This document shows positions 15,874 through 18,338 of a DNA stretch of 64,000 nt, one piece after another. Origin of the DNA: Vagococcus sp. CY52-2 (GTDB lineage: Bacteria > Bacillota > Bacilli > Lactobacillales > Vagococcaceae); the NCBI RefSeq assembly GCF_022655055.1, contig NZ_CP093384.1, positions 558,001 through 622,000 on the forward strand, read 5' to 3'. Below the pieces are notes generated by a model that was not told where the DNA came from, ran no database searches, and saw only the letters and a list, made by a program, of their open reading frames with translations. The translations under genes were made by a program, and so were the position numbers. The stretch's first letter is position 1. Every line of letters begins with the position of its first letter.

Positions 15874-16716
15874 ATGAATAAAAAATAAAAATTGGGTTAG
15901 CGCTATTTGGTGCAACAGTACCGAGAAGATGCAAATCTTGTTGGGGTGCCTGATGGTAGAACCATTTATTGAGAGACGAATCAAGAAAAAAGATAAATAT
16001 TTTGACAATTTAAACTTACGTAAAGCTCTATCATATGCAATAGATGGAGAAGCCATTATCAACCATGTACTAGGAGATGGATCTAAGATTGTATGCGGGA
16101 TTGTATCTAAAGGGCTTTCGTCAAATCCCAAAACAGTAAAAGATTTTGTTGCAGATTCATAGAAGTACAAAGAGTTTGATGAAAAAAGAAAAAGAATATT
16201 TTGAAAAAGCTAAAAAAGAGTTGATTATTGATACGCATCGTTTCGAGATTTTAACAGATGATCATGACTCAACGAAAACATTGCTGAGTACATTCAAAGT
16301 GCTTATAAAGATGTATTAGGAATTGAAACAAACGTAGCAATTACCACAAAACCCATTCGTCCTGACTGTACGACTGCAAAAGGGGGGGAGATGGTCGTGA
16401 CTGGTTGGGGAGCAAATTATAACGATGTGAGTTCATTCTTAAATTTATTTGTGACAGGAAATAGTTACAACAAAGGGAAATATTCTAATCCTAAATACGA
16501 TAAATTAATCGAAGGATCTAGAACAACGCATGCAACTAATTTAGAAGCGAGATGGCAAAATCATTTGGATGCTGAAAAAGTATTGTTGGGTGAAGGTTAT
16601 GCTGTCATTCGACTATATCAAGTAGTTGAAGGACATTTAATTAATCCTAAAACAAAGGATATGGTCGTCATGTTGCTGGAGCTCCCTATGATTATAAATA
16701 TATGTCAGTAGAGTAA
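15874..16716 (+). pseudogene. Oligopeptide-binding protein (OppA-like), degraded
   Basis: Remains of a peptide ABC transporter receptor. GGAGGAGT precedes an ATG that meets TAA at codon 5. After that signal-peptide scraps (KLGLALFGATV) continue. A large part of the N-terminal domain is missing. Later segments, in different frames, include NLNLRKALSYAIDGEAIINHV-like text, MVVTGWGANYNDVSSFLNLF, and the C-terminal GAPYDYKYMSVE end typical of lactic acid bacterial OppA proteins. Several frameshifts and stops separate them. No other opp genes lie nearby, so this may be a decayed orphan receptor. Confidence 0.85.
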
Positions 16717-16931
16717 TCATAAATTTGAGTATAGAGATTTTACTTAGAATAGTTTTTATATAATTAATCAATAAAATGTAACAAAGTACCCCGTTGAATT
16801 CATGTAAGAGTGAAGCTGAACGGAGGTGTTTTTTATTTTTAAATTTGTTTTGAGTATCAAATTAAAATGATTTTTGTTATAATTAGACAATAGTTACTGA
16901 ATGTCTAGATGTCTAAAGGAGGCGTATTTGT

Positions 16932-17063
16932 ATGTTACCACAAACAGGAGAAGTTATTATGAATTGGCTGCCATATATAGGCATTGCACTTGTTGTCGTT
17001 GTAGCTTTTTTATTGTTTAAGAAAAAAAAATCTAATGACGATGAAGAACAAAATGAACCATAA
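16932..17063 (+). CDS. 43-aa microprotein consisting of an LPQTG sorting signal
   Basis: A 43-residue frame starting MLPQTGEVIMNWLPY, then a hydrophobic helix (about 15-29), a KKKK cluster and an acidic tail. It is laid out like a sortase C-terminal sorting signal, but with nothing in front of it: no signal peptide and no surface domain. AAAGGAGG (16917-16924) is well placed before the ATG. A TATAAT lies at 16878-16883, and a small hairpin follows, so it looks like a complete gene rather than the tail of another. Short LPXTG-only proteins may be known in related bacteria; the function is unknown to me. The alternative is the stub of a deleted surface protein. Confidence 0.68.
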   Translation: MLPQTGEVIMNWLPYIGIALVVVVAFLLFKKKKSNDDEEQNEP

Positions 17064-17070
17064 CACAAGA

Positions 17071-17093
17071 AGCACCTTTTTAGGTGTTTTTTT
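17071..17093 (+). terminator. Small terminator before pepT
   Basis: CACCT (17073-17077) and AGGTG (17082-17086) with a 4-base loop, followed by seven T residues. The stem is short but the T run is good. Confidence 0.6.
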
Positions 17094-17117: not shown

Positions 17118-18338
17118 ATGTCAAAACTACTAGAGCGTTTTATTACATATGTCAAACTAAATACACGTTCAGATGCAAGTAGTAGCACCATCCCAACGAC
17201 TTATTCTCAAGTGGAATTTGCCTTAATATTAAAAAAAGAATTAGAAGAAATGGGATTAGATAGTATTTTTTATAATGAAAAAAATGGTTTTTTGACAGCC
17301 AAATTACCTAAAAATAGTGATGAAAAGGTGACGTCAGTTGGATTTATTGCACATTTAGATACAGCTGATTACAATGCTGATAATATCACACCACACGTCT
17401 TTTCTAATTATGATGGTGGTGATGTGGTATTGAATAAAGAAACGAACATCATCATGAAGGTGGATGAGTTTCCTAACTTGAAGGACTATGTAGGAGAAAC
17501 ATTAATTACAACTGATGGAACAACTCTCTTAGGTGCAGATGATAAGGCAGGAATTGTGGAAATATTAGAACTGTTGGACTATTTCATTAGTCATCCAGCG
17601 ATTGAGCATGGAGATATTTATGTTGCTTTTGGTCCTGATGAAGAAATTGGAACAGGGGCAGACCATTTTGATGTATCATATTTTCCAGTGGACTATGCTT
17701 ATACTATTGATAGTGGACGTATCGGACACTTTGAGTATGAAACGTTTAATGCTGCTCAAGCCACGTTAACGATAGATGGGACAAGCGTTCATCCAGGGAC
17801 AGCATATGGCATGATGGTTAATGCATTAAAAGTGGCAATAAATATAGATGCACAACTTCCTCAATTGGATGTACCAGAAAAAACACGAGGTTACGAAGGA
17901 TTTTATCTACTTCATGATTTAGAGGGAAGCATTGACTCAGCGACAATGACTTATATTATTCGAGATCATGATAAAGCTCGCTTTGCTGAGAGAAAAGACT
18001 ATATGACACGACTTGTTGATGAAATGAATAAGACGTTTGATCGTCCAAGAATTTCTCTTCAATTAGTTGATCAATACTATAATATGAAAGACATCATAGA
18101 ACAAGATATGAGAAGTGTTGATGTTGCTGTTAAAGCAATGAAACAGTTAAGTATTGACCCAATTATTACCCCTTTTAGAGGTGGAACAGATGGTTCAAAA
18201 ATATCATTTATGGGTGTGCCTACACCAAATATTTTTACAGGTGGAGAAAATTTTCATGGGCAATATGAATTTATTACATTAGAATCGATGGAAACTGTTG
18301 CAAAATTATTGATAGAAATTGTTAAATTAAGTGATTAA
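17118..18338 (+). CDS. pepT: Peptidase T (tripeptide aminopeptidase)
   Basis: A dizinc M20-family enzyme releasing the N-terminal residue from tripeptides in the cytoplasm. The 406 residues carry FIAHLDTADYN (first metal ligands), TTLLGADDKAGIVEIL, GPDEEIGTGADHF and, near the C terminus, FRGGTDGSKISFMG and NIFTGGENFHGQYE. Length and motifs match PepT throughout. AAAGGAGAG precedes the ATG. The dehydrogenase frame starts 15 bases after the stop with its own GGAGG, so the two may be cotranscribed. Confidence 0.95.
   Translation: MSKLLERFITYVKLNTRSDASSSTIPTTYSQVEFALILKKELEEMGLDSIFYNEKNGFLTAKLPKNSDEKVTSVGFIAHLDTADYNADNITPHVFSNYDGGDVVLNKETNIIMKVDEFPNLKDYVGETLITTDGTTLLGADDKAGIVEILELLDYFISHPAIEHGDIYVAFGPDEEIGTGADHFDVSYFPVDYAYTIDSGRIGHFEYETFNAAQATLTIDGTSVHPGTAYGMMVNALKVAINIDAQLPQLDVPEKTRGYEGFYLLHDLEGSIDSATMTYIIRDHDKARFAERKDYMTRLVDEMNKTFDRPRISLQLVDQYYNMKDIIEQDMRSVDVAVKAMKQLSIDPIITPFRGGTDGSKISFMGVPTPNIFTGGENFHGQYEFITLESMETVAKLLIEIVKLSD

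Follow-up and report, generated by a model that had tools for sequence, protein, structure and literature searches.

A gene for a 43-residue protein lying directly ahead of pepT in Vagococcus sp. CY52-2 encodes a sorting signal and nothing else. Within the window, that is, the whole stretch of 64,000 nucleotides that was analysed, its open reading frame runs from ATG to TAA and yields the product MLPQTGEVIMNWLPYIGIALVVVVAFLLFKKKKSNDDEEQNEP. We propose, with a probability of roughly 0.45 for the explanation as a whole, that it is a gene in its own right, encoding a sortase substrate without a passenger, whose usefulness would lie on the side of the C-peptide and the sortase. The locus contains the following features:

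15907-16713, forward strand: oppA (oligopeptide-binding protein) pseudogene, the upstream neighbour; matched by tblastn as fragments in two frames, without the N-terminal part.
16875-16883, forward strand: extended −10 element TGTTATAAT, the probable microprotein promoter; TGYTATAAT in all five species that carry the gene, with diverged flanks.
16915-16922, forward strand: Shine-Dalgarno sequence AAAGGAGG, 9 nt before the ATG and invariant in the five species.
16932-17063, forward strand: microprotein ORF, 43 amino acids; LPQTG at residues 2-6, transmembrane stretch at about 8-29, KKKK at 30-33, acidic tail.
17067-17092, forward strand: hairpin resembling a terminator, with a U tract, immediately behind the stop codon; −12.1 kcal/mol, z −3.98.
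17118-18338, forward strand: pepT (tripeptide aminopeptidase; NF003976, 575 bits), the constant downstream neighbour in five Vagococcus genomes.

The initial annotation had read the LPQTG, the hydrophobic helix and the KKKK stretch as a sortase signal, and the profile scores bear this out. The microprotein reaches 36.9 bits with the Pfam sorting-signal model PF00746 (cut-off 20) and 38 bits with TIGR01167 (cut-off 15.9), which places it in the domain by both models. It is the second-best match of PF00746 in its own genome (E = 3.5e-8), and the remaining matches above the cut-off all lie inside frames of at least 118 amino acids. Its hydrophobicity peaks at residues 8-26, where the best 19-residue Kyte-Doolittle mean is 2.25. 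The LPQTG, the helix and the Lys cluster are those of an LPXTG sorting signal, but such a signal normally terminates a longer secreted protein, whereas here the motif begins at residue 2. A signal peptide and a surface domain had been said to be missing, and rightly: the protein starts M-LPQTG, a single residue precedes the motif in place of a mature extracellular domain, and five codons before the ATG the frame is closed. The window contains a single match to the pattern SD-ATG-LPxTG-[DE], and 100 shuffles gave none. The nearest described proteins, those of the EF2685/EF0750 family (NF053819), are likewise very small LPXTG proteins, and the microprotein matches profile positions 73-104; however, the approximately 70 positions before the motif are missing from it, and its 33.4 bits, obtained with the sorting part only, stay below the cut-off of 47.

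The ribosome binding site, the TATAAT and the downstream hairpin that had been advanced in favour of a gene are all present (AAAGGAGG, TGTTATAAT and 17067-17092). The interval first given, 16917-17093, holds as the span from Shine-Dalgarno to terminator, the ORF itself being shorter. No −35 box was found upstream of the gene, which would make its promoter an extended −10 one. In V. bubulae the terminator retains the GCACCT/AGGTGC stem with an altered loop. The oppA pseudogene of the window has broken frames and has lost its N-terminal part by deletion; homologues precede pepT in other congeners, and those of two of them (G009 and G012) are open in the stretches read. In V. bubulae oppA is gone from the locus and the microprotein ORF is intact. 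The survival of the ORF beside a neighbour that has decayed or vanished speaks for a selected gene. A search of Rfam gave no credible match, one of PHROGs gave weak matches only, and in a plasmid search the microprotein was unmatched, as were the first 20 kb of contig 2 of its own genome.

Among 14 Vagococcus genomes searched, five hold the microprotein ORF (the window's own, V. bubulae and three more), with 85-98% identity to the window protein in the other carriers. The five share the start codon, the Shine-Dalgarno sequence and the place before pepT, at a distance of 186-190 bases from start to pepT, and in their alignment TGYTATAAT, AAAGGAGG and the terminator stem are kept between spacers that have diverged. 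Over codons 1-35 the window's gene and that of V. bubulae differ by 18 synonymous and 4 nonsynonymous changes (binomial p 2e-9 against a neutral expectation of about 1 in 5 differences synonymous), a figure that depends on one diverged sequence in a gene that has recombined. The ordinary orthologous sorting signal of a 741-residue protein shows, in the same two species, 2 synonymous versus 5 nonsynonymous differences (Fisher p 0.016 for the contrast); the contrast loses strength when another pair of the ordinary signal is used for the comparison (Fisher p 0.07). With start, ribosome binding site, −10 element, terminator and protein conserved in five species under purifying selection, the microprotein ORF is almost certainly a real gene. 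Related genomes with a complete LPXTG protein in this place would have exposed it as a fragment; in the 13 Vagococcus genomes inspected ahead of pepT, among them the window's own, there is none. Congeners with the same pepT and no microprotein usually have oppA ahead of it, and in single cases another gene. Since no LPXTG gene occupies the locus in congeners, the microprotein is not the 3′ end of a surface protein lost there. Ordinary Vagococcus sorting signals also carry the LPxTGEV...LPxIG pattern, so the helix motif is not special, and LPxIG was dropped as a hallmark of the microprotein.

The locus has a history of recombination. Two of the carriers (G008 and G009) differ at 58% of the synonymous sites of pepT and at none of those in the ORF; for the window's species and V. 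bubulae the figures are 20% for pepT and 73% for the ORF. From this pattern, the microprotein segment (or pepT) is taken to have been exchanged between species, which calls for caution in species-tree reasoning on this gene; the ratio of synonymous to nonsynonymous changes within the gene is independent of that history. In the first pair (L011 and L010, segment 1501-1626) the near-identical ORF forms a short tract of recombination, with oppA on one side and pepT on the other.

Similar microproteins occur in other lineages. They were sought by a pattern scan of the order (396 genomes) and by a strict scan for SD-MLPxTG[DE] in about 85,000 species. The strict scan returned 30 matches, six of which are microproteins with a helix and a Lys tail, all from Lactobacillales; the others are unrelated frames. 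The loose RBS-ATG-LPxTG pattern gave mostly noise in the 396 genomes, and three apparent micro-ORFs (L102, L103 and L104) were rejected as C-terminal ends of longer frames. In V. acidifermentans the microprotein MLPQTGEIIKNWLPWIGLAIILIVANVAWFFKYRKKK is 57% identical and its gene is divergent from cdaA. In the genus of Facklamia hominis an MLPQTGE... microprotein directly follows the oppBCDF operon in all five genomes sampled, with an invariant LPxTGE and a helix only 50-83% identical. A profile of the microproteins run over the 396 genomes gives its members E below 2e-15 and other sorting signals E above 1e-11, a separation that is descriptive and not a test, the members being its training set. 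The gene neighbourhoods differ by lineage (pepT, cdaA, opp, nrdH-like, fhs), and being unrelated they point to a product acting in trans. In Lactococcus plantarum (L127, L130) the genes of the microprotein MLPNTGEQVLKMLPFIGGIIIIIVIIIFFFLRKKGDKDK and of an NrdH/glutaredoxin-like protein share an ATGA, the stop codon of the first overlapping the start of the second, which suggests translational coupling. In Enterococcus alishanensis (L106, 3403-3620), next after the microprotein MLPNTGEKIMSALPWIGGAIIVIAVLIYLYKSNKK comes another tiny membrane ORF (LGFDILDIAYFLPFAVGGILCVVAIIIFVRNMRKKK), and an LPXTG gene and integrase-like frames lie beyond it; the region is possibly a mobile element.

Relatives in the Aerococcaceae bear on the topology. 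In one of the five Facklamia-genus genomes (G329) an apparent signal peptide, MKVWLSFLLITFLLLGNGNKIYAHE, stands directly before MLPQTGERSSW..., and three species of genus g60 have 60-residue proteins in which what looks like a signal peptide is followed after three residues by LPNTGE, a helix and Lys, in the context SP-M(E/S)xLPNTGE (for example MKKTFLFSYILTLFMFFPVEVNA-MEVLPNTGE). Similar proteins in G333, G098 and G262 have a signal peptide or an N-terminal hydrophobic segment before the sorting signal; the signal peptides of all these relatives were called by eye. In g60 the ratio of synonymous to nonsynonymous differences is 20:3 in the sorting part versus about 10:18 in the signal peptide (p 2e-4), which makes the sorting part by far the more constrained of the two. 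The Aerococcaceae mini-proteins (G220, G244, G345, G329, G333, G098 and G262) share with the window protein a bare C-terminal sorting signal and the lack of a passenger domain, but they have a signal peptide or an N-terminal hydrophobic segment, whereas the window protein relies on its own helix. Its net charge of −1 before the helix and +4 after it predicts an N-out orientation, and the relatives in which a putative signal peptide immediately precedes this motif indicate that evolution keeps the motif exposed outside. The earlier proposal of an N terminus outside gains support from those relatives. The motif is kept outside with nothing attached, through a signal peptide in some lineages and, as we infer, through N-out insertion of the helix in others; the window protein is probably N-out and seen by sortase.

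Its genome has two complete sortase genes, neither of which passes a class-specific cut-off, one sortase fragment and about a dozen other sorting signals. As judged from its sequence, the microprotein is a likely substrate for sortase processing. In the model, insertion of the helix would place KKKK on the inner side of the membrane and the N terminus on the outer, which would leave LPQTG outside the membrane at the spacing normal for a sorting signal. A resident sortase would cut between T5 and G6. The 38 residues after the cut would stay in the membrane as the C-peptide, and what precedes them would be no more than the pentapeptide (f)MLPQT, either free or joined to a wall precursor. Because there would be almost nothing to anchor, the useful product may lie on the side of the sortase and the C-peptide. 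The microprotein would serve as a sentinel or buffer substrate, and the state of the helix, processed or not, would tell a membrane partner such as a histidine kinase whether sortase works. In Streptococcus gordonii the sortase A C-peptide of adhesins is sensed by the kinase SGO_1180 (Hall 2019, as reported in PMC11326707 and PMC11502775). There a membrane remnant of sorting acts as a signal of sortase activity, and the microprotein would leave such a remnant, but that of S. gordonii comes from large adhesins, whereas the one proposed here would come from a dedicated gene. The variable helix of the Facklamia genus fits generic membrane anchoring better than a specific partner, and we advance the C-peptide or sentinel function as the main role only tentatively. 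It is conceivable, and similarly doubtful, that Lactobacillales have a regulatory class of dedicated genes for passenger-free substrates, some with a signal peptide and some lacking one, for which sortase processing is the signal.

Nearly as likely as the sentinel role is that of a decoy or wall cap, in which the microprotein would occupy sortase and lipid II, throttling the display of larger LPXTG proteins, or would cap wall precursors with a short peptide. The lack of a passenger to display agrees with it, and an invariant LPxTGE combined with a variable helix, as in the Facklamia genus, is what a pure substrate needs; in Vagococcus and g60, however, the helix is more strongly constrained than a substrate requires, and we regard this role as somewhat unlikely. 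Less likely still, despite the opp neighbourhood in two families, is a precursor of a peptide signal, from which sortase or another protease would free MLPQT or a fragment of the helix for import by the oligopeptide permease. The adjacency (oppA-pepT in Vagococcus, oppBCDF in all five Facklamia-genus genomes) speaks for it, but it was noticed after the fact, the copies of V. acidifermentans, L. plantarum, E. alishanensis and g60 are not beside opp genes, and the oppA next to the microprotein gene is a pseudogene in the window or absent in V. bubulae.

Translation of the ORF could also govern readthrough of the hairpin into pepT, the microprotein gene being a leader or attenuator. The ORF is short, the hairpin comes right after its stop with pepT 25 bases on, neither an LPXTG gene nor any other lies between ORF and pepT, and V. 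bubulae has no oppA promoter able to serve pepT. It is nevertheless the protein sequence that is conserved, with synonymous sites near saturation, and similar microproteins elsewhere adjoin other genes, which makes a leader function improbable. That the ORF is a stub, left from the 3′ part of an LPXTG surface-protein gene that decayed and starting at an ATG by chance, is largely refuted by the purifying selection, the conserved Shine-Dalgarno sequence and terminator, and the congeners without an LPXTG gene at the locus; several Vagococcus genomes have a Met just before LPxTGE in long frames, so truncation is plausible as an origin. Type I toxins are small proteins with a single helix and a charged tail, and the microprotein resembles them in all three respects, but an invariant LPxTGE and relatives bearing signal peptides have no place in a small hydrophobic membrane toxin of a type I toxin-antitoxin pair, an equally remote explanation.

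Sortase substrates are defined by the cargo that they carry to the wall, and a conserved gene free of cargo separates the signal from the cargo. In the open-access literature no description of LPXTG-only microproteins was found; the sorting domain is known and its architecture as a dedicated conserved gene appears to be undescribed. Such ORFs are easily dismissed as fragments of surface proteins, and may be under-annotated for that reason. The passenger-free substrate proposed here would be a natural minimal tool for two questions: are C-peptides the means by which sortase activity is sensed, and can a sorting signal that lacks a signal peptide insert N-out? If it is a sentinel, it would provide a gauge of sortase activity independent of adhesins.

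Two side observations concern other frames. In viral contigs the strict pattern hit mainly a 131-133 amino acid ‘MLPxTGD’ protein whose architecture does not match; it is conserved and starts MLP(K/T)TGD in most of L135-L147, where it is a source of false positives. The small Aerococcaceae genome G396 has nine sorting-signal matches on several contigs (e.g. L234), many of them in short frames (MLPNTGESHMNLLPLA...), which may be silent cassettes or else repeated genes cut off where contigs end.
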